Source: Bacillaceae bacterium (GTDB lineage: Bacteria; Bacillota; Bacilli; JACDOE01). From it: a stretch of DNA of 64,000 nucleotides. Below the pieces are notes generated by a model. The model had not been told where the DNA came from. It did no database searches and saw only the letters and a list, made by a program, of their open reading frames with translations. The translations under genes were made by a program, and so were the position numbers. Shown here piece by piece: positions 26,107 to 51,906 of the stretch. The stretch is taken from NCBI GenBank assembly GCA_017656255.1, contig JACDOE010000001.1, positions 561,205-625,204 of the forward strand, in the 5' to 3' direction. Numbering within the stretch: the stretch's first letter is position 1; every line of letters starts with the position of its first letter.

Positions 26107-26278
26107 GTCGGTCACCTCTCTCTTGAAGGATTGCTTCTTCGGGTAACCATATTATATGGGCGGATGCCCGGGTTGGTGAATGTTAAAAAAAGGAATCTTT
26201 CTTATTTATTCTACTTTTTAAAAATTTATAAGTTGTTTTCGAGACCGCAATATAAATTTTCTTAGATAAAAATCAAAA

Positions 26279-27889
26279 TTAACTCCTACGTTTTTTTTTT
26301 ATATGTAACTTTTGTATTTTAAATTGCATCGCTCTAAGAGTCTTAATGCTATGAACAAAATTTAATTTCGAGAAAAAAGGTAACCTCTCGTGTATCTCTT
26401 TATCACCTTCATAAATGATAGCATACACAATTGTGTAATCCCGAGGATTAAATGTATCTATATCAAATAACAAAGGAAATTGTTCATCAATCTCTGATAT
26501 TTTCTCGTTAATCTTAGGAATAACTTCTTCTGTAAAATAAACAAGAGTTTCTGCACTAACTCTCCCTTGAGCAAAAAGATGACTTAAAGTAGATGAACTT
26601 TTCCAAGGTTTTACATGAACAAGGTGTTTTTCTTTTGATAATAAATCACATAATTCAAACTTTCCATTATTATCAATTACGATATTTACTTTATCCATAC
26701 AAAGAATTTCTGAGTTAGAATTTGAAATTGATTGATTATATTCGTTTTCACTACTGTAAACCGCTTCATCATAATCCAGTAAGTCAAGATTACTATTATC
26801 GACACTCTGTATAATACTATCTATTTCGCTTACATAGTCTCTATCAATTAAAAACCATTGACCTAAAGTTAAGACATAATAGTTATCATTAAATATTATT
26901 TCTGCAACTAAGCAATTGTAAATTGACCATTTATCAATTAATTGATTAGTTTCAGAGTTATAGACATATATCTTATCTTGTTTAAGTTTATTAACAGTAT
27001 AATTGTTCCTAGGTTTTTTCTCTTTTATGTAATTTTTCAGACTTAATTCATCTTCTAATTGACCCATCTGTTTGTATGAAAATACAATATTATCCTCCAT
27101 GTTTATTATTTCAGGTGGGGCTAAATGAATATTGTATTCATTATCATTTTCATAAATATCATTTATTTGATCTAATAACTCATTGTTTAAATTATTAATC
27201 AAAACAGGATCTTTAACTTCAGTTAAATAATCTATCCATTCAAAATAATCTTTATATTTTTCAGAATTAAAATCATAGATTAAATTATCGCATATTGTTT
27301 TCAAATCTTGAAAATTAAATGAAAAATAAAAATGAAAAGAGTCTCTACCTGCTATTATTTTTCCATACCTATCAAAATCTTTTGATTCTGCAGTCACTGC
27401 TTTTAACAAATCCCTAGTATCATCAATTTCGAAATGATTAATATCTGAGGATTTACTAGTTTGTATTCTAGCTTGAACAGTAATTGAATCGACAGTTGAA
27501 GAATCAATACTTTTCAATTTGTTTATTTCACAATTGTTTAACACTATTTTTAAACCAAACCCTCTTTCATAAGTCTCTGGTTTTATCATGTGTTTACCAT
27601 GCCCAAAAGTAAAAGCAAAAATTCTACCTCTTCTTTTTATTAGCATTACAGCTCTAGTAGATTGATTCATAATTTCTGGTGGATTTATAATTCCTTTTTT
27701 TAATTCTTGGTACCAAGAAGGTTTAGTTTGTTGGTTATGCCCAATATAAATAATTCCATTTAAATCAAATGTATCCTTTATATATAATTTATGCTCCCAT
27801 TTTTCTTCTTCTATTACTTCATCAAATTCAGTGTATTCTTCTTTAATTAAGAAAACAGTATATTTTATCTTAGGAGTATTGCCAACCAT
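26279..27889 (-). CDS. TIGR04141/DUF6119 family sporadically distributed protein
   Basis: 536 residues. Recognised by the family pattern: RAVMLIKRRGRIFAFTFGHGKHM, then ERGFGLKIVLN, the SIDSSTVDS segment, HLAPPEI in the middle, and VHVKPWKSSSTLSHLFAQGRVSAETL near the C-terminus. This family (about 550 residues) is known for patchy distribution and frequent presence on mobile or defence-like islands; its biochemical activity is not established. The gene is strikingly AT-rich by eye compared with spoVK and the acyl-CoA synthetase on either side, with A/T-ending codons, which points to recent transfer. AAGGAGG precedes the ATG. It stands alone apart from the DUF2726 gene 213 bases upstream. Confidence 0.85.
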   Translation of the reverse strand: MVGNTPKIKYTVFLIKEEYTEFDEVIEEEKWEHKLYIKDTFDLNGIIYIGHNQQTKPSWYQELKKGIINPPEIMNQSTRAVMLIKRRGRIFAFTFGHGKHMIKPETYERGFGLKIVLNNCEINKLKSIDSSTVDSITVQARIQTSKSSDINHFEIDDTRDLLKAVTAESKDFDRYGKIIAGRDSFHFYFSFNFQDLKTICDNLIYDFNSEKYKDYFEWIDYLTEVKDPVLINNLNNELLDQINDIYENDNEYNIHLAPPEIINMEDNIVFSYKQMGQLEDELSLKNYIKEKKPRNNYTVNKLKQDKIYVYNSETNQLIDKWSIYNCLVAEIIFNDNYYVLTLGQWFLIDRDYVSEIDSIIQSVDNSNLDLLDYDEAVYSSENEYNQSISNSNSEILCMDKVNIVIDNNGKFELCDLLSKEKHLVHVKPWKSSSTLSHLFAQGRVSAETLVYFTEEVIPKINEKISEIDEQFPLLFDIDTFNPRDYTIVYAIIYEGDKEIHERLPFFSKLNFVHSIKTLRAMQFKIQKLHIKKKRRS

Positions 27890-28102
27890 TGGTTTTCCTC
27901 CTTGTATGTATTTGAAGAATACTTTATGATAGTAAAAACTTAGAGCTATCAGAAATGAGGAATTCTATCGAAACAAAACACATCCTTCTATTAATTATTA
28001 TTTATTGTACCAAAAAGAGGAAATTAAAACCATACTGTCATAATCAAGTCAAGACAGAACAAGTCCTATTAAACCACCTGACTACCGGCTTTATAATCTT
28101 TG

Positions 28103-42736: not shown

Positions 42737-44383
42737 TTACGTGGCACGTTCTATATATACGCCATGAAATCTCAGACTCCAATTCTTATAAGTATGTAAC
42801 GCGACCGGTTTGATGTCCCCGAGCTTCTGCCCGTTTTCCTCACAGGTGTCCAGATAAGTTTTCATCCCGTCTTTTTTAATTCTAAATATATGCGGTTCTT
42901 TTAATTGCCCCAGTTTACGGCAATAGTCGTAATGAAAGTTTTCGCGCAACTTTTGATCCAGATAAGACGCCAGTGACAGGGGCAGCTCCTCACTTGTTTC
43001 CATATACAATGTGTAGCATTGCTTTTTATAATCATCATAAGCCAGCAAGAAAAAACGGGGATTGAGACTATAAGCATTGAACGTATCACGCAAAACCTCG
43101 GATACATGTGCTTCGTTTAACTTTTCCCCGAAATGATCCACCACTTTATCCGCTTTCCCCAGAAACCGTATCACCGGCGTCTTTTTTTCAAATCCGACCA
43201 CCTCGATCATGTCCTGTAACTGATAACGATAAAATCCTCCCCCTGTCGTCACGATAACCGAATATGTCTTACCGGTTTCCAGTTGATGAGCCCCTTTTAT
43301 ATCCGATGATCCCGCTTCTTTAAATTCAAAAAAATGGCTGCGAATGGCCAGGACCCCATCATTCAGATGAACCAGTGGAAACGAGACAAATGCTTCCGTA
43401 GCCAGAAGGCCTTTAGCCTGAAAGGGAATGTCCCCCATTCGCCTTCTCAACTCATTGTAATAAGGTAAAGCATTGCCATCCCGCCAGCAACTGATCAGGG
43501 ACAGCTTTGGCCAGATGTTATTGTATTCACGGGGGGTTAATGGTCGCAATTCATCTGCTCTTGCCGGGTCAGGTTGAATCTTCCTGACTAACTGACGGTA
43601 GATATTATCATCAATTCGGTTTGGCAGACTTAAGCGCCCGTGTTCGATGTCTGCGATCAGGCTGTGCCAGTGATACTCCAGTTGATCCAGCAGGATAAGC
43701 AAAAACGTCGGATTCCAGATTGAAATCAGCGACAGGCGCCGGTCTTTTAATAAAAAGAACAGGGTGGCATAGTGAAACGATGGGATATCGCTGATGTACT
43801 TCACTGCAGCCGGAACCGCCATCATGTTGTTGACCACATATTTTTCAATGAAACCGAAATAATCGGTATCATCCTCAAACCCGACAGGAATTCCACTTCG
43901 GGTAAATGTTTTGTTGGTGGAAACAGGGGTGATTGACCAGTAGGATGTGCCGAACAACAACCGCCGATGATGCGTATAAAGATTAAAAATCCAGGCCGAT
44001 ATTCCCCTCTGAAAGTCATGTTTTAACCCTTTGGTATAGGGAATCATTTTGGATGCAGCGGTGGATCCGCTTGATAATTCGAACATCAACACCGGATCAC
44101 ACGTCAAAACAGACTTTTGCCCGTCTGATAGCGCGTCGATATATGAAACATAATCTTCGTACATTGTAAGCGGAACCTTAGCCTGATAATCCTGGATCGA
44201 CTTGATATCAGCAAATTGATGCCGTATGCCAAAATCAGTATTTTGATTTTGTCGCAACTGCCGTTTCAGATAGGTCCGTTGGGTTTTTTCAGGGTTTCTC
44301 AGTGACAATGTCAGGCAGATATATTCTTTCAGGCTGAGCAGCAGCCAGACGAGATGACTGAGTAACAGAATCCATGATTTCAA
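42737..44383 (-). CDS. GH3-family acid-amide ligase-like protein
   Basis: 548 residues of the GH3 (auxin-responsive promoter) superfamily of ANL-type adenylating enzymes. Seen: the ATP-binding serine/threonine loop FELSSGSTAASKMIPYT near residue 100, LLATEAFVSFPL, the VTTGGGFYRYQLQDMIEVVGF segment and RFLGKADKVVDHFGEKLNEAHV. GH3 proteins activate a carboxylic acid as its adenylate and join it to an amine, usually an amino acid. The N-terminus is hydrophobic, suggesting membrane contact. It is the last gene of the six-gene radical SAM operon and overlaps the previous gene by four bases. Bacterial GH3 substrates are mostly unknown. Confidence 0.88.
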   Translation of the reverse strand: MKSWILLLSHLVWLLLSLKEYICLTLSLRNPEKTQRTYLKRQLRQNQNTDFGIRHQFADIKSIQDYQAKVPLTMYEDYVSYIDALSDGQKSVLTCDPVLMFELSSGSTAASKMIPYTKGLKHDFQRGISAWIFNLYTHHRRLLFGTSYWSITPVSTNKTFTRSGIPVGFEDDTDYFGFIEKYVVNNMMAVPAAVKYISDIPSFHYATLFFLLKDRRLSLISIWNPTFLLILLDQLEYHWHSLIADIEHGRLSLPNRIDDNIYRQLVRKIQPDPARADELRPLTPREYNNIWPKLSLISCWRDGNALPYYNELRRRMGDIPFQAKGLLATEAFVSFPLVHLNDGVLAIRSHFFEFKEAGSSDIKGAHQLETGKTYSVIVTTGGGFYRYQLQDMIEVVGFEKKTPVIRFLGKADKVVDHFGEKLNEAHVSEVLRDTFNAYSLNPRFFLLAYDDYKKQCYTLYMETSEELPLSLASYLDQKLRENFHYDYCRKLGQLKEPHIFRIKKDGMKTYLDTCEENGQKLGDIKPVALHTYKNWSLRFHGVYIERAT

Positions 44384-45105
44384 GTTATCACCCTGCTCCC
44401 GATGACACGATGTCCGGCTTTTGTCAGATTCTCGGGATGAATTTCACACAGGCAGACCAGTTCTTCCCCTTCATCATGTCGTGGATTTTTATCGATGAAA
44501 AATTGAACATGCGGATCTTTCAGTTTATCCGCGGTTACGGGAGCGACACCTTCCTTCAACCGCTCGCTGGAATGGCTGAACCGTACGACCCCTCTATCCT
44601 TCCTGTAATCCCGGCCGTATTTATAAGCTGCCAGATCATCCATCAACCCCTGTATGTCCGGTGGCGTTTGTTTGTAAAAACACGGGTAAAAATTCTTGAA
44701 GAATACCGGCAAAAAACGATAAGTTTTATAGCCTGAAGAAATCAAAAACCAGAACCACTTTTTGCCTGGATCGGTTTCTCTCAAGGAAAAAACAAGTTTG
44801 CCCCAGGCTTTTGGAAGTTCCATCGACCCCCAGTATGCCCGATCCACAATGGTATCACCCGAAAATACAATCTTAACGATTTTACCCTTCCAGTTAAAAT
44901 CCATGACCATCATGTTTGAAAACCCGACGATGGCATTCTCGCCTGTATCTTTCAGTAAAATCACACGTGACTTTTCACGCAAATCGCGGATAAAATTTTC
45001 TCGGGTGATCCCATCAAAATACCGCTGTAACAATAAATACATGTTATTTTGATCCGCTTCGCTGATGTCATGAATCGATAGAATGGCACTTTTGATATTT
45101 GACAT
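44380..45105 (-). CDS. acyltransferase-like protein of unknown function (GNAT-like)
   Basis: 241 residues. The first half resembles a GNAT fold: FIRDLREKSRVILLKDTGENAIVGFSNMMVMDF, then a strand with VFSGDTIVDRAYWGS, which is the usual acceptor-side pattern of large GNAT-like proteins, and WFWFLISSGYKTYRFLPVFFKNFYP. The C-terminal third is not recognised. There is no membrane segment. It is coupled to the GH3 gene (ATGA-type overlap) and starts 12 bases after the GNAT gene. The GNAT call is by pattern only and the acyl donor is unknown. Confidence 0.65.
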   Translation of the reverse strand: MSNIKSAILSIHDISEADQNNMYLLLQRYFDGITRENFIRDLREKSRVILLKDTGENAIVGFSNMMVMDFNWKGKIVKIVFSGDTIVDRAYWGSMELPKAWGKLVFSLRETDPGKKWFWFLISSGYKTYRFLPVFFKNFYPCFYKQTPPDIQGLMDDLAAYKYGRDYRKDRGVVRFSHSSERLKEGVAPVTADKLKDPHVQFFIDKNPRHDEGEELVCLCEIHPENLTKAGHRVIGSRVIT

Positions 45106-45117
45106 ACTGACTCCCCT

Positions 45118-46236
45118 TTACAACCGTGCGATTTCCAGATAGGGAATTTGCCGGGACAGACGGGCATCCCTGATAGGCTCGTCCGGCTCGTCCCAGTGCA
45201 CCAGATATAAAATGCTCGGGTATTTGATATGCCGGTACTTCTCAGGGATTCGGATGAGTGGATCTTGCTCGGAAAAGCCCACCATGATAAAGTCATAGGG
45301 TTTATCCGTAAACGCCCCATAAATAAAAGCAAACAAATCATCAAATACTGTGTCATCGTTATCTTTAACGGCCGTGTGGCTCACATAAAGATATGAAAAT
45401 GCCTTTCCTTCCTCCGGTAATGCCGGCAATCCCGTCACCGTCGACAACATATTGTAAACGGGTTTGATCCGTTTTATTTTGCCGTGATAGGAGTGGATCA
45501 TGGTTTGCTTAAAAGCTGACTGGTCCCAGATGGCCGTGACCCCGACAAGCTGACCCTGCTTTCTGGCCATATAAAAGGAGTCCCAGCTTAACCCGCGACT
45601 TAAAAGATCGGATTCCAATCGCGCTTTTGTATAGACCGGATAGAACAATTTCTCTTTTCCATGTGTGTTAAGAAAAGCGACGATCTCATCGGCATCCTGT
45701 CGGGACGCGCGTTCAATCTGATACTGAAAGCGGTGGGTATGCCGTTTATAAAAAGGTTGCTTCAAAAAAACACTGTACGTGATCATTTTCCCCACCCGGG
45801 AGTAGTAGGGCAACCCCAGGCGATGTGATGTCAACAGGTCTCGGACCCTGAAATTATCTTCAACAATGGTCGTCATAGCACAGGGCACATCCAGCTCTGC
45901 AATTAAATCTCTCATTTTTTTGTAACCGCCGGATAACAGGCGAATATCCCCCTGATACTCCCGACGCACGCGTAGCTGGCTCAAATAGCCGATTTTTTTC
46001 TTCGATTGGTTGATATAGGCGTCAAAGGTGCTGACACTGCCCATCCCCACCAGCTCAGATCCCTGTCTGGCTGTCAGAATGCGATAATCCTCCCCTTCAA
46101 TCCGGGTGGCATGGAAGTAGTCAGGCTCCCTGGCAAAAACAACCGATATCTCCCCTTTCATCGGTGTTTCCCTCAATAATTGTCTTAACTGGCTTTCATC
46201 TGACGCCTTCGCCAGATCAAATGTGTATGTTGCCAT
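45118..46236 (-). CDS. GNAT-family acyltransferase, probably two GNAT modules
   Basis: 372 residues. Residues 1-150 form a GNAT domain with the acetyl-CoA loop region YLSQLRVRREYQGDIRLLSGGYKKM. Residues 155-350 look like a second, more diverged copy (IERASRQDADEIVAFLN at its start, YLYVSHTAVKDNDDTVFDDLFAFIYG further on). It presumably transfers an acyl group to an amine. It lies between a B12-type radical SAM gene (16-base gap) and the second GNAT-like gene. Substrate unknown. Confidence 0.8.
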   Translation of the reverse strand: MATYTFDLAKASDESQLRQLLRETPMKGEISVVFAREPDYFHATRIEGEDYRILTARQGSELVGMGSVSTFDAYINQSKKKIGYLSQLRVRREYQGDIRLLSGGYKKMRDLIAELDVPCAMTTIVEDNFRVRDLLTSHRLGLPYYSRVGKMITYSVFLKQPFYKRHTHRFQYQIERASRQDADEIVAFLNTHGKEKLFYPVYTKARLESDLLSRGLSWDSFYMARKQGQLVGVTAIWDQSAFKQTMIHSYHGKIKRIKPVYNMLSTVTGLPALPEEGKAFSYLYVSHTAVKDNDDTVFDDLFAFIYGAFTDKPYDFIMVGFSEQDPLIRIPEKYRHIKYPSILYLVHWDEPDEPIRDARLSRQIPYLEIARL

Positions 46237-46252
46237 CCTTTCACCTGATTTC

Positions 46253-47653
46253 CTAAACGATTACCTGGTTGTTCGCATCGGTTAACCTCGTTACATCCAC
46301 TTTCAGCAGTTCACCCTCAAATCCTTCGTCACCCAGCGGATACCCTTCCCGCTGACTCGCTTCTTTTCGTAACAGAAAATTAATAAACCAGAAGTTGTAC
46401 CACATGAAAAAGTTGCTGCTGTTGGTTTTGTTAAAAGACCGTTTAATGATCGAGGGAATGCTGTAAAAGCGTTTCCGTGATTCCACGCATTTTTCACGGA
46501 TCAGATCGGCATTTAATTCTCCCTTCACCACAAATGGAACATCCCCATAGCGATAGCGGTCATCCAGCCACCATTTGTCATATAGTAAACGCCCTTCTTG
46601 TTCCAACCGCTCGTATAAAGGGGTTCCCGGAAACGGGGTCAAATGATTGAATGCCACCATATAGATGTTATGTTTCACACAGAATTTCACCGTTTCTTCA
46701 AAGGATTCCAGTTTATCGTGGTCATAGCCAAACACAAAGGTGGCATACAGACGAATCCCGTATTCGTTCAGCTTTCTGAGAGCTGCCGTAAAACCTCCTT
46801 TAGCGGCATTAAACCCTTTGTTCATATGTCTTAAATTGTCGGGATTAAGACTTTCGAATCCGATTAAAACCCCCTGACAGCCACTGGCCTTTAACAACGC
46901 CATAAACTCATCGTCGTGGGTACAGGTGATGCTTGCCTGCCCCACCCATCTGATTTTCAGCGGTATCAGGGCACGAAATAGTTCTTTCGCCTGCTCCATA
47001 TTGGATACCACATTATCATCCACAAAGAAAAACAGTTTTTTACCCTGCTTCTTTAATATCCTGATTTCTTCCACGATTTCCTGGTAAGGCCGGCGGATCT
47101 GTGTGCTGTTAAAATAACTCTGGATCGCACAAAAATCACATTTAAAATGACATCCGCGCCCGGCCTCCACTAATGCGAGCGGCAAATATCTTTTTCCCCT
47201 GAAAATCGAACGGTCCGGTCTCACACCTTCTAATGTGGGCCGATCGGTCCGTGTATAAAAACGTTTCAGGCGGCCGTTTTTAAAATCTTCTATAACGGCC
47301 TCCCACAGGCCTTCCGCTTCACCGATGACGACCGCTTCTGCATATTCTGCCACTTCGTCGGGTACCAGTGTGGCATGAAAGCCTCCCATCACAACCGGGA
47401 CTCCTCTTTTTCTGTATGCCGATGCAATCTGGTAAGCCCGTTTGGCCGTATAAGTCTCGATACTGATGGCCACCAGATCAGTGGTTTCATCGAAGGGGAT
47501 GGGTTCGATGCGATCATCATAAAATTTAATTTCGACGTCGTCCGGGGTTAAAGCGGCGATCATGGCCGGCGGCAACGGCTCCATTTCCCATGATTTGATG
47601 TAAGATTCCCCTTTTTTCTTCCCGATACAGGGATGTATCAGTGTCAGTTGCAT
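46253..47653 (-). CDS. B12-binding-type radical SAM enzyme, copy 2
   Basis: About 466 residues from the ATG at 47653, which has GGGAGTG nine bases upstream; a longer frame to 47701 lacks a ribosome site. Residues 1-130 are a cobalamin-binding-like Rossmann domain (VPVVMGGFHATLVPDEVAEYAEAVVIGEAEG). The radical SAM core follows with the cluster motif C-x3-C-x2-C in GRGCHFKCDFCAIQ, then FFVDDNVVSN and GFESLNPDN. The C-terminal 130 residues resemble the DUF4070-type extension. The classical DxHxxG cobalamin motif is not seen, so cobalamin use is not certain. It is clearly a paralogue of the protein at 48795-50123. Confidence 0.87.
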   Translation of the reverse strand: MQLTLIHPCIGKKKGESYIKSWEMEPLPPAMIAALTPDDVEIKFYDDRIEPIPFDETTDLVAISIETYTAKRAYQIASAYRKRGVPVVMGGFHATLVPDEVAEYAEAVVIGEAEGLWEAVIEDFKNGRLKRFYTRTDRPTLEGVRPDRSIFRGKRYLPLALVEAGRGCHFKCDFCAIQSYFNSTQIRRPYQEIVEEIRILKKQGKKLFFFVDDNVVSNMEQAKELFRALIPLKIRWVGQASITCTHDDEFMALLKASGCQGVLIGFESLNPDNLRHMNKGFNAAKGGFTAALRKLNEYGIRLYATFVFGYDHDKLESFEETVKFCVKHNIYMVAFNHLTPFPGTPLYERLEQEGRLLYDKWWLDDRYRYGDVPFVVKGELNADLIREKCVESRKRFYSIPSIIKRSFNKTNSSNFFMWYNFWFINFLLRKEASQREGYPLGDEGFEGELLKVDVTRLTDANNQVIV

Positions 47654-47676
47654 CCTGTGTTCACTCCCATCACATT

Positions 47677-48798
47677 TTACAACCAGTTTGCGTTTTGCCA
47701 CAGCGTACAGTTTTTGCAGGTCTCAATTTCGTTGTATTTTCCCTCAACCATTAATCGTCGAAACCGGTTCCATTCATTTGAATTATAAATATCCCGGATA
47801 CGCTGCTGTTTGACATTTCCCATGATGTTTGTGTGTGTAAAATCATTGACGCAGAACGGTACATCGCCGTTATGCAGGATATGCAAATGGGAAAAGGCAT
47901 ACGGACAGACGGGAAAAATACGTTTTGCAAAATGTTTTTTGGCAAATCTTTTCAGCCTGTTTTGGACCGGTTGTTGGACGACATGATATTTTTTCAGTGA
48001 ATCAGCGCGGTTGTTGACATCAATGCCTAAGGTATTAAATCCTTTTTTGCGCCAGTATGTCTTAAAAAAATCGTACTCCTGGTAATTTTCATTCTGACGA
48101 ACAAATCTGACGAACACATTGGTCCTCGACAGGTCCAATTGCGCGATCTGCTCAAGATTTCGAATGACGGTATCCCAGTCAAGCCCTTTCATAATGGCGT
48201 GGTAGGTTTCCCGGTTCATGGCATTCAGACTGATATTGATGAGATCAAGACCGTTCCGGATCAAGGCTTCCATTTTCGTTTTCGTTAACAGGCTGCCGTT
48301 AGTGGTGATTTCAATGCGTTGATGATGCCTGCGCTTTTCGTTAAATTCCCTGACGCGCTCAACCAGTTTGACATCCATTAACGGTTCCGTCTGCGCCATC
48401 GGGACGAAAACTTTTAAAGACGTTTCCTGGACGGCTTCATCAACGATTCTGGTATACAGATCATCCGTCATGATACCTTTATCTTCCAGATGAACCGTTT
48501 CCGGATACGGGCACATGATACAACGGCCGTTACAGCGATTAATGGTCTGAACCTGAATGACCGCCGGGAATAATTCAGTGTTTTCCCGTTGTTGAAGCCA
48601 TCTATGAATATTGGGCAACAAAATCTCTTTCATTTGCATCGCATAGCCGAGTGCCGTTGTCTTTTTGGTCAGGGGGTTTTGATATCCGGTTCTGGAGTAT
48701 TGAAACGCATAGATCAGCTTCATGATGAAAAGGATCCCGGCATATAAGCCATCGATCCATTTTTCTTTTATGACGGAACTTTTCGATAACTGGCTCAT
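47677..48798 (-). CDS. radical SAM/SPASM enzyme
   Basis: 373 residues. A 75-residue N-terminal helical region precedes the radical SAM core, with C-x3-C-x2-C in INRCNGRCIMCPYPE. The C-terminus has a SPASM-type auxiliary cluster region, FPVCPYAFSHLHILHNGDVPFCVND and ETCKNCTLW (in parts). SPASM enzymes modify peptides, proteins or small molecules with an extra iron-sulfur cluster. No precursor peptide gene is visible next to it. It overlaps the preceding gene by four bases, so translation is coupled. Confidence 0.88.
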   Translation of the reverse strand: MSQLSKSSVIKEKWIDGLYAGILFIMKLIYAFQYSRTGYQNPLTKKTTALGYAMQMKEILLPNIHRWLQQRENTELFPAVIQVQTINRCNGRCIMCPYPETVHLEDKGIMTDDLYTRIVDEAVQETSLKVFVPMAQTEPLMDVKLVERVREFNEKRRHHQRIEITTNGSLLTKTKMEALIRNGLDLINISLNAMNRETYHAIMKGLDWDTVIRNLEQIAQLDLSRTNVFVRFVRQNENYQEYDFFKTYWRKKGFNTLGIDVNNRADSLKKYHVVQQPVQNRLKRFAKKHFAKRIFPVCPYAFSHLHILHNGDVPFCVNDFTHTNIMGNVKQQRIRDIYNSNEWNRFRRLMVEGKYNEIETCKNCTLWQNANWL

Positions 48799-50123
48799 CT
48801 CATAAACCCACCGTTACAGGTATAGAAACGATGGAGGTTATAAGCGTAAAAACGATAACCGAGATTAGTGACCATTTGCAATGGAATCTGAATCCCGGAC
48901 CCTGCCACACGCCTCCATATATTCTTGTAGCGATAAACGTATTTCCAGGTCCACTCATGACCCCGATACAACTCTTCAGGAGTCATATGCCGGGGCTCGA
49001 ACACCACGTGTTGGCCATCATACTTTTCCCAGTCCTCTTCGATGATTCTTCCTTCGAATTTCAACCTTTGATATAAAGGTGTGGCTGGAAATGGGGTGAC
49101 AATGGCAAAACGGGGCAAATCGATATGAGCGTCGATCACGAATTCAGCGGTTTCTTGAAACACCTCTTTTGTGTCACTGTCAAGGCCGAAGACAAAAGTT
49201 CCGTTAATGGCGATTCGGCGATCATGAAACTTTCTTACTATTTCTTTATATTTTTCCGGGGAGTTAAAGCTTTTCCTGGTTTCGCGCAGTGTCTCCTTTG
49301 AAATGCTTTCAAAACCCAGTAATAAACCAGAACAACCGCTCCTCGCTGCCAGATCCAGCAGTTCCTCATCTTCAGCCAGTAATGTGGTGGATAGGCCGTA
49401 CCATTTCACTTTTAAAGGGATAAGCGCCTGGAAAAGTTGTCTGGCATAATTTCGATCGGCGATAAGGTTCAGATCAAAAAAGACCAGTTTTTTGGATTTC
49501 ATTTGTTTAATGTCCCCGATGATCACATCGATGGGCTTTTGAAACGGTCTATTGCCCCAGGCAGTCGGTACCACACAGAACTCACATTGATGGATACATC
49601 CCCGTGTTGCTTCAAACGAATGGTTTGTTATATACGGTTTGGATGGCAGCAATTCCCGTCGTGGATAAGGCAAATCTCTCAACATATCCAGTGACAGATC
49701 CGGACGCATGTCATAACGCTGCTTCAACTGTCCATTTTTAAAATCTCTGAGCAATTGTGGAAATGTTTCTTCGGCATAGCCGGTGACAATACTGTCGGCA
49801 TGTTGCATCGCTTCTTCCGGTACCAGGGTTACGTGAGGACCGCCCAAAACGACGGTGATCCCTCTTTTTCTGAAATGGGCTGCCAGTTCATAGGCCCGTG
49901 GTGCCGTTCCGGTGATCACGGTCATGCCGATGATATCCGCTTCAATATTTAAATCCAGTTCCCGGATACCTTCGTCCTGAATCTCAACAGTAGCGTTTAA
50001 TTCCGGAGGGACATAGGATGCCAGGGTCGTCAGTGTCAACGGGGCCGCCCGCAGGTTTTTCTTGAAAATTCCCCCTTTATACCGATACAAAGGGCCTTTT
50101 GGAGAAATTAAAACAATTTTCAT
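48795..50123 (-). CDS. B12-binding-type radical SAM enzyme, copy 1
   Basis: 442 residues from the ATG at 50123, chosen because AAAGGTTG lies seven to eight bases before it. The N-terminal Rossmann-like domain shows ITVVLGGPHVTLVPEEAMQHAD; the radical SAM core has the cluster motif in TRGCIHQCEFCVVPTAWG and the later GCSGLLLGFESISKETL, NGTFVFGLDSDTKEVF and FPATPLYQRL. It shares layout and many segments with copy 2 at 46253. Enzymes of this type methylate unreactive carbons or do ring or carbon-skeleton chemistry. It is the first gene of the operon. Confidence 0.87.
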   Translation of the reverse strand: MKIVLISPKGPLYRYKGGIFKKNLRAAPLTLTTLASYVPPELNATVEIQDEGIRELDLNIEADIIGMTVITGTAPRAYELAAHFRKRGITVVLGGPHVTLVPEEAMQHADSIVTGYAEETFPQLLRDFKNGQLKQRYDMRPDLSLDMLRDLPYPRRELLPSKPYITNHSFEATRGCIHQCEFCVVPTAWGNRPFQKPIDVIIGDIKQMKSKKLVFFDLNLIADRNYARQLFQALIPLKVKWYGLSTTLLAEDEELLDLAARSGCSGLLLGFESISKETLRETRKSFNSPEKYKEIVRKFHDRRIAINGTFVFGLDSDTKEVFQETAEFVIDAHIDLPRFAIVTPFPATPLYQRLKFEGRIIEEDWEKYDGQHVVFEPRHMTPEELYRGHEWTWKYVYRYKNIWRRVAGSGIQIPLQMVTNLGYRFYAYNLHRFYTCNGGFMR

Positions 50124-50232: not shown

Positions 50233-50931
50233 CTACCCGTCTATGAAATCCATTGGATCAAATTCTATCTTTTCAATATAGGTCACCGGTTCGTCCATAT
50301 AGGTGGTATACGGCAAATACTCCTTTAGATATTCTTCTTTCGAATCCATGCCGCTTTTTTCTTCTTTACCTTCGTAATAATGGTGTGTCCCCGTTTCGAC
50401 CCCTGAGATTTTCCACTTGTCATCATCTTCTGTAAACATATATTTGTTTACTTGATAAAACTCATGCTCGAGACCTGATTCGTCTTCCCATTTGTCAATT
50501 TGCCTGGCAAAAACAATTTTCCAGTTATGGTCCGGATCCTCATAAACCTTTGAGATGTCAACGGTTATGGATAACGTATTGAATATCTCGTCATGTCGCA
50601 TTTCTTTCTGATAGGTTTTCAGTTGTTGAAATTCATCATCAGACAGGCCTTTTAAATCAGCTATCCTGTAAGATTCTCCGTTATATACCAAAATCTCTTC
50701 TGCGTCAAAATAAGTGGGATCCACCAGAATGTCTTCAACCGTATTTTTATAATCTTCATACGACATGTTCAGGTACCTGGCCTGAATCAACGTCTGTTTC
50801 AAGGTCCTGGTTTTTTCAATAATCGATGGGTTGACAGATTTTTCTGTCTTGTTCATACAACCGGACAACAACAACACGGTGAGTAATACGAAACCGAACA
50901 AACGCCATTTAGACAGTTGTTTTCCTGTCAT
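50233..50931 (-). CDS. lipoprotein of unknown function
   Basis: 232 residues with a classical lipoprotein signal (basic start, hydrophobic core FGFVLLTVLLLSGC, cysteine near 25). The rest is acidic and resembles extracytoplasmic proteins with a YDKYK-type repeat-less fold; I recognise no family. Tyr- and Glu-rich stretches include YMDEPVTYIEKIEFDPMDFIDG at the end. It overlaps the membrane protein gene upstream by 23 bases and so belongs to a three-gene operon. Confidence 0.75.
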   Translation of the reverse strand: MTGKQLSKWRLFGFVLLTVLLLSGCMNKTEKSVNPSIIEKTRTLKQTLIQARYLNMSYEDYKNTVEDILVDPTYFDAEEILVYNGESYRIADLKGLSDDEFQQLKTYQKEMRHDEIFNTLSITVDISKVYEDPDHNWKIVFARQIDKWEDESGLEHEFYQVNKYMFTEDDDKWKISGVETGTHHYYEGKEEKSGMDSKEEYLKEYLPYTTYMDEPVTYIEKIEFDPMDFIDG

Positions 50932-51397
50932 CTAGCCTTCCACCTTTCTTATACATAGAATTCCTTTTTATCAGTAATCCCACCCACAGAAGAACCGTTG
51001 GCAACATTGTCATGACTATATAAAAAAGAAACTCAAATAGAGGTTGACCGATCTGATCAATTATCCAGCCTGGAGCTATCCCGATTGGATTATACAGGTA
51101 CCACAGAAATATTGGATCAAGGCTGATCACACCGAGAGATCCGTGGTAGCCCTGCCGCTCAGCCAGGGCGACAAAAAGAACAATGTAACCGATAAAAGCG
51201 GGAGAAAGGACAGAGAGAAAATCTTCAAAAGCTCTTTCAGTCGTTGTGAGTTTTGTTCCGATGTAGATGTAGCATACAAAAATCCCCAGAGTGGTTACAA
51301 TAAAGACGATTGCTGTGTCCAATATGCTGATCAGGGGAAATACAAACGTCGCTATTGTGATCTGAAGTAACAGGACAATGAGATTATTTCTGATCAT
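50909..51397 (-). CDS. multi-pass membrane protein of unknown function
   Basis: 162 residues, four likely membrane segments (about 5-25, 28-47, 65-83 and 118-140), with a basic C-terminal tail. No family recognised. It overlaps the next upstream gene by four bases and the lipoprotein gene downstream by 23 bases, so the three products are probably made together, perhaps as a membrane complex. Confidence 0.75.
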   Translation of the reverse strand: MIRNNLIVLLLQITIATFVFPLISILDTAIVFIVTTLGIFVCYIYIGTKLTTTERAFEDFLSVLSPAFIGYIVLFVALAERQGYHGSLGVISLDPIFLWYLYNPIGIAPGWIIDQIGQPLFEFLFYIVMTMLPTVLLWVGLLIKRNSMYKKGGRLDDRKTTV

Positions 51398-51906
51398 CCG
51401 CCGTCTCCCTTTTTGGTATCGTGGCCCCTGACCTTTCGAAATAGACCGATGATGATTTGTAACCCGATCAAAACAAATAGTATCACGAGTGCTCCCATGA
51501 GATAGATGCCGGTACTGACTAAAGGGGGCATCTCAAATTTTTGTAAGGATGGATCATCCGGTGTTAAATCGGCAATGACGAAGGTATTATTCTTTGTCAG
51601 CACAATATGTTCATCACGCTCCAGGCAGTGTGAATTCATGTTTATTCGGCCATCTCGTAATAAATCACCCTCAAATGACATGTTTGAATACGTTGCTTTC
51701 CAGGTATAAAACTGGCTCAACAGAGCCCAGGAAAAATTTATTTCACCCCGTTCAACCAGTGTTTCGTTACAAAATTCACGGGCAAACGATTTGATTGCGC
51801 CATCCAGGTTTGTTTCAAACCGATCTACCCTGGCATTCAATTCCAACCAATAAAAGACAAGGATAACATTAACGATAAACCAGCCGATAATAAGTTTCTT
51901 CAGCAT
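51394..51906 (-). CDS. two-helix membrane protein with extracytoplasmic domain
   Basis: 170 residues: one membrane segment at 5-22, an extracytoplasmic domain of about 100 residues with three cysteines, and a second membrane segment at about 133-157 followed by a basic tail. No family recognised. First gene of the three-gene operon; ATG at 51906 is preceded only by a weak GGGGGTCGT ribosome site. Confidence 0.72.
   Translation of the reverse strand: MLKKLIIGWFIVNVILVFYWLELNARVDRFETNLDGAIKSFAREFCNETLVERGEINFSWALLSQFYTWKATYSNMSFEGDLLRDGRINMNSHCLERDEHIVLTKNNTFVIADLTPDDPSLQKFEMPPLVSTGIYLMGALVILFVLIGLQIIIGLFRKVRGHDTKKGDGG

Follow-up and report, generated by a model that had tools for sequence, protein, structure and literature searches.

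The six genes at positions 42737 to 50123 of the 64,000-nucleotide stretch of Bacillaceae bacterium contig JACDOE010000001.1 analyzed here (hereafter, the window) make up a copy of a conserved gene cluster. The core of this cluster consists of P2, a protein with a predicted single GNAT fold, a GH3-family acyl-acid amido synthetase (GH3; P1 in the window) and P3, a double GNAT, and in most hosts these are joined by two to five orthologous B12-type radical S-adenosylmethionine (rSAM) proteins, which in the window are P6 and P4. The remaining gene, encoding the rSAM/SPASM protein P5, lies outside the conserved set. On a modest balance of the evidence, the operon appears to be an instance of a widespread cluster for the biosynthesis of a long-chain acyl amide, that is, an amino-lipid or lipid-like amphiphile, without a polyketide synthase, a nonribosomal peptide synthetase or a ribosomal precursor.

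A conserved cluster recurs across bacterial phyla

A search of the phylum with the GH3 family returned four Bacillota loci in which GH3 stands beside P2 and B12-type rSAM genes. Aligned with that of the window, the P2 sequences of the four loci then served as the query against 84,980 species genomes, which yielded 57 loci, and profile searches of the open reading frames (ORFs) in these loci showed that the same families surround P2. Among the 19 loci whose flanks reach at least 5 kb in one direction and 6.5 kb in the other (Alcanivorax and Aquabacterium left out), P3 and a B12-type rSAM protein are encoded in all 19 and GH3 in 18; at least two rSAM proteins are present in 18 of the 19, and the entire P2-GH3-P3-rSAM set in 17. 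The cluster is defined by P2, GH3, P3 and two or more B12-type rSAM genes in close proximity, all of which the window has. The same families are found together in at least seven phyla, the named lineages being Bacillota, Planctomycetota, Pseudomonadota, Desulfobacterales, Omnitrophota and Saganbacteria, and the carriers include animal-gut Ruminococcus and Lachnospiraceae, alkaliphilic anaerobes, Planctomycetota and Omnitrophota; Ruminococcus flavefaciens 007c and Alkaliphilus serpentinus are among them. Because gene order varies between lineages, this repeated company is the more telling. Trees of GH3, P3 and P2 gave no resolved placement of the window proteins, and we do not claim a mosaic origin.

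An earlier note, made from the sequence of the window, had proposed that the six genes belong together as a genuine biosynthetic unit that fits no standard class, and the co-occurrence scan bears this out for all but the SPASM gene. That the six are neighbors by chance is extremely unlikely: the 80 other sampled genomes of the host's class lack GH3 and P3 of the window type, as a chance assembly might predict, but P3 and rSAM genes co-occur across phyla in all 19 of the flanked loci counted above, and the set is also found on a plasmid. Chance is refuted for the five core genes. P5 (47677-48798, minus strand; 373 aa), in which Pfam recognizes Radical_SAM and SPASM domains, may be a chance addition, and no homologue of it was assigned in the 57 related loci (E ≤ 1e-4). 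The "three radical enzymes" of the earlier note are thus correct for the window genome, whereas the core has two of the B12 type, the number in other hosts rises to five, and conservation does not extend to the SPASM protein. We found no account of a cluster with this gene combination in the open-access papers that we searched, nor a match there to a characterized pathway; as our literature search was confined to such papers, "undescribed" here means not encountered in them.

The mobility of the cluster is seen directly in Citrobacter portucalensis from a gull, in which a complete core set resides on a mobilizable IncFIB/IncFII plasmid (L097, NZ_CP134684.1 51417-63512). The genes are ordered P2, GH3, rSAM, rSAM, P3, rSAM, rSAM, PAP2 and a hypothetical gene, and the opposite strand carries a further rSAM gene, making five in all, and a fatty-acid desaturase gene. 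A megablast search against E. coli genomes did not find the cluster.

The core also occurs without rSAM genes. In Alcanivorax, an AraC-type regulator lies upstream of P2-GH3-P3, and the genes after this trio encode a PapA_C-like acyltransferase, HlyD and a resistance-nodulation-division (RND) pump; in Acinetobacter baumannii (L095, L098), the locus encodes a LuxR-type regulator, an amidase, HlyD, a major facilitator superfamily (MFS) transporter, P2, GH3, an outer-membrane efflux protein (OEP), P3 and SurE. Because such rSAM-free versions exist, P2, GH3 and P3 appear to provide the core chemistry, and the radical steps seem to elaborate on it. In some aerobic Pseudomonadota, the core probably works without radical steps and its product is probably exported by the adjacent pump. 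The absence of a transporter remarked on in the earlier note therefore holds for the window but not for these relatives, which stand beside RND/HlyD (Alcanivorax) or HlyD-MFS-OEP (Acinetobacter) export genes. We came across no open-access paper on the product of the A. baumannii version. Proline lipids, lipo-amino acids of undescribed biosynthesis, come from Alcanivorax (reviewed in PMC6669457). They serve as a lead only; the species for which they were reported, A. dieselolei, does not appear by name among our Alcanivorax matches. Two database records, CAKLQF020000015.1 (L098; filed as "Acinetobacter phage MD-2021a") and NZ_CP064203.1 (a 3.97-Mb "plasmid"), resemble ordinary bacterial chromosomal sequence.

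Several loci of the P2 scan differ from this pattern. In Bacteriovoracaceae and Deltaproteobacteria (L068 499-3351 and L072 2504-5338), P2 is found without GH3 or P3 and adjoins a protein of unusual make-up, in which FG-GAP and ASPIC/UnbV repeats are fused to a membrane domain resembling NqrB/RnfD. Three Aquabacterium loci (L088, L090 and L093) have P2 without GH3, P3 or rSAM genes, and in L090 an ATP-binding cassette exporter and an outer-membrane efflux protein are encoded nearby. In Clostridiales bacterium PH28_bin88 (L033 568-4606, the same as L039), lysine-fermentation-like genes, comprising a zinc dehydrogenase, an amino acid permease, BKACE and a hotdog thioesterase, lie directly upstream of the cluster; as they were seen at this single locus only, we take them to be incidental.

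The core proteins and their closest relatives

P3 (45118-46236, minus strand; 372 aa) is a core protein in which Pfam recognizes GNAT. Its AlphaFold model has a mean predicted local distance difference test score (pLDDT) of 92.8, and when the model was compared with the Protein Data Bank (PDB) by Foldseek, the 50 best matches were all eukaryotic N-myristoyltransferases (NMTs), full-length, with E values of 9e-14 to 9e-13 and template modeling (TM) scores of 0.55 to 0.63, although a small number of enzymes accounts for many of these entries. The same search with the P2 model, a partial control, returned mixed acetyltransferases, with NMT lower in the list. NMT uses its own C-terminal carboxylate as the catalytic base, a feature described as unique within the GNAT superfamily (PMC4964394, PMC7048800). 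Human NMT1 with three residues deleted from this end loses activity. P3 ends in E-x-x-x-L-COOH: the last residue is exactly Leu in all 39 complete homologues from the scan, window included, and the residue at position -5 is Glu in 37 and Asp in 2. Other P3 proteins end in EVGRI (Acinetobacter), EIALL (Citrobacter) and EIYLV (Burkholderia). In the model, the tail is well placed (block mean pLDDT 91) and the linker preceding it is floppy (block mean 53).

P3 and NMT are alike in their two fused GNAT domains, a full-length fold match and a conserved last residue with a free carboxylate. They are unlike in that P3 shows no significant sequence-level match to NMT (a sequence search of the PDB gave weak GNAT matches only), is bacterial and lies inside a biosynthetic operon; because of this last location, its acceptor is probably a small molecule rather than a protein N terminus. 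The NasY N-acyl amino acid synthases, for example those of the stieleriacines, are likewise dedicated lipo-amino acid enzymes; their clusters reportedly contain nitroreductase/adenylyltransferase genes, not rSAM genes (PMC12479983). Neither P2 nor P3 matches the N-acyl amino acid synthase families of Pfam.

P2 (44380-45105, minus strand; 241 aa), the hallmark of the cluster, has an invariant S-G-D-T motif. It matches no Pfam or NCBIfam family, and a sequence search of the PDB with it returned nothing. The "second GNAT-like protein" of the earlier note nonetheless proves apt, as the AlphaFold model of P2 has a GNAT fold (pLDDT 95.4). In profile-profile comparison, P2 matches the N-terminal half of P3 (E 1.8e-5, probability 78%), so that model and profiles alike identify P2 as a predicted GNAT related to the first half of P3. 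P2 lacks a conserved C terminus of the P3 kind.

P1 (42737-44383, minus strand; 548 aa), the GH3 core protein, contains all three Pfam GH3 domains above cut-off (197.5, 59.1 and 33.3 bits for the N-terminal, middle and C-terminal domains) and the nucleotide-binding motifs SSGST, ATEA and GFYRYQLQD, which some relatives keep less strictly. Among solved structures, those of the plant acyl-acid amido synthetases GH3.15 and JAR1 are nearest. The sole characterized bacterial GH3 that we found in the open-access literature is OlsH, which uses ATP to join free fatty acid to ornithine, giving N-acyl-ornithine (PMC12493201). The OlsH/OlsI pathway of Singulisphaera acidiphila also employs a bacterial GH3 as the amide-forming step in a lipid context, but it operates without rSAM or GNAT enzymes (PMC12493201). 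Identification of P1 as OlsH was rejected, as P1 scores 49.9 bits against the 620-bit cut-off of the OlsH model (NCBIfam NF052613), over only about 90 residues. It is accordingly highly unlikely that the operon encodes an ornithine lipid pathway of the OlsH type with additional enzymes: beyond this weak match to the one characterized bacterial GH3, the window operon has no counterpart of the alpha/beta-hydrolase acyltransferase OlsI, and its GNATs would be redundant.

P6 (rSa; 48795-50123, minus strand; 442 aa) and P4 (rSb; 46253-47653, minus strand), both conserved core proteins, each combine Pfam B12-binding and Radical_SAM domains with a CxxxCxxC motif, the composition of cobalamin-dependent rSAM proteins. 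Three cobalamin riboswitches are present in the host genome, which also encodes further B12-binding proteins. The earlier note gave methylation or rearrangement of unreactive carbons as the known activity of B12-type rSAM enzymes; for P6 and P4, methylation, like cobalamin binding, is putative, the closest solved structure for one of the two being the dehydratase AprD4. P6 is 45 to 62% and P4 43 to 57% identical to homologues in other lineages. The CxxxCxxC motif is present in all 104 rSAM homologues, and the tree of these proteins splits into two deep groups; of the several orthologue groups in it, most extend over a number of phyla. P6 and P4 fall in separate orthologue groups, and both cluster with Planctomycetota and Pseudomonadota, not with other Bacillota (support 100 and 99). 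The window genome was assigned its phylum through Clostridiales bacterium PH28_bin88, a genome of the same phylum that carries the cluster. Their best NCBIfam matches include HpnJ, BchE, PhpK and the ladderane-type TIGR04072, with AprD4 among the matches of both, and the nearest solved structures to the pair are AprD4 and an unnamed rSAM protein. P6 and P4 share domain order and the CxxxCxxC motif with these enzymes; however, they score far below every curated cut-off and constitute separate subfamilies that travel with P2, P3 and GH3.

The nature of the product

We infer an acyl-amide product, and with it the substrates, the long-chain donors, chain editing by the radical enzymes and the order of steps. 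In the proposed pathway, GH3 would adenylate a carboxylic acid with ATP and join it to an amine, as expected from its family. P3 would bind a long-chain acyl thioester and, with its own C-terminal carboxylate as general base, acylate an amine in the manner of NMT. P2 may acylate a second position or ready the acceptor, while P6 and P4 would edit an unreactive carbon, before or after the other steps and most likely on the hydrocarbon part of the molecule, with P5 as a local accessory. A modified lipid or amide, as suggested in the earlier note, remains the best reading, its details being putative; the sequence given there, in which an acid is remodeled, then amidated and then acylated, gained no support.

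The neighbors of related clusters in independent lineages favor a lipid or lipid-like amide. Clusters with an adjoining fatty-acid desaturase gene are those of L042, L073 and the Citrobacter plasmid, the last two of which also adjoin PAP2. L042 also has DUF3419, the BtaA-like family, and a methyltransferase nearby; a CDP-alcohol transferase and a cytidylyltransferase are encoded near the cluster in L041, and Tes/TrsS-related rSAM genes in L038 and L041.

Several points weigh against this reading. Lipid neighbors are seen in a minority of loci, with none noted in most Bacillota; the nearest solved structure to P6 is that of an aminoglycoside enzyme; and the acyl donor of P2 and P3 could be acetyl-CoA. 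Moreover, the likeness of P3 to NMT is structural only, at 10 to 14% identity and a TM score of about 0.6. None of 30 P3 members matches Pfam NMT or NMT_C (E ≤ 1), and the profile-profile comparison gave an E value of 0.04 over part of the length, and membership of P3 in the NMT family by sequence was rejected on these grounds. Because sequence methods show no homology, our claim is that P3 works like an NMT, not that it is one.

The AprD4 likeness of P6 and the AprD4 matches of both rSAM proteins, together with aminoglycoside acetyltransferases among the Foldseek matches of P2, would suit a hydrophilic small molecule of the amino-sugar or aminocyclitol type, in which the rSAM pair would deoxygenate or methylate a sugar-like core, the GNATs would acetylate amines and GH3 would attach an acid. 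We regard such a product as rather unlikely, since the top 50 matches of P3 are all NMTs and not acetyltransferases, lipid genes recur near the cluster, and no biosynthetic family beyond the core recurs across phyla, so that conserved sugar-building genes are lacking. A structural membrane lipid, with acyl tails cross-linked or methylated by the rSAM enzymes, as by Tes, and an amide head group built by GH3 and the GNATs, is also unlikely. It would accord with the Tes/TrsS-related, DUF3419, CDP-alcohol transferase and cytidylyltransferase neighbors and with HpnJ, BchE and ladderane-type TIGR04072 as best matches of the radical enzymes. However, Tes-like genes are confined to two loci, the complete one scores 110.8 bits against the Tes cut-off of 450, and the rSAM-free versions adjoin efflux pumps, which suggests a secreted product.

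The acyl-amide reading can be carried further, to a new class of natural-product or lipid pathway that occurs throughout the bacterial tree and also on plasmids. Here an NMT-like enzyme of bacteria with a C-terminal carboxylate base would acylate a GH3-built small molecule, and two to five dedicated B12-type rSAM enzymes would edit its hydrocarbon chain. We offer this fuller version tentatively, as a possibility.

Genomic setting and implications

All six ORFs were confirmed and lie on the minus strand. With starts chosen by homologue match (M-K-I-V at 50123 for the first gene and M-Q-L-T at 47653 for the third), the intergenic distances are -4, 23, 16, 12 and -4 bases, in agreement with the overlaps or gaps of at most 23 bases described earlier; Pfam likewise agrees with the gene families named then for five of the six proteins. 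A scan for promoters and terminators performed no better than on shuffles, and the operon limits therefore rest on spacing and conservation. Downstream lies a convergent GGDEF gene. Upstream, a gap of 109 bases separates the operon from three small, unrelated genes on the same strand (50233-51906), which encode a putative lipoprotein and two apparent membrane proteins and have no Pfam or NCBIfam match and no counterpart in related loci; they were not counted with the cluster. Because adjacent genes of the operon overlap or are separated by no more than 23 bases, there is no room between them for the short precursor gene that marks ribosomally synthesized and post-translationally modified peptide clusters, and no small ORF family of at least 70 aa recurs in the rSAM-bearing loci, ORFs below 70 aa not having been searched.

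Elsewhere in the window, GC content falls sharply to about 26% at 26200-28000, from about 48 to 50% just before. This stretch covers a 536-aa ORF (26279-27889, minus strand), which is probably a recently acquired gene.

The cluster is present in gut bacteria, in alkaliphilic anaerobes and on a mobilizable enterobacterial plasmid, yet we found no open-access paper on it. It brings together up to five B12-type rSAM enzymes within one cluster. Because cultivable Alcanivorax, for instance A. jadensis, has rSAM-free versions, the core chemistry of P2, GH3 and P3 is separable from the radical steps for testing. The models also point to what is apparently an NMT-like enzyme in bacteria; if this is true, the P3 family could bear on the origin of eukaryotic NMT.

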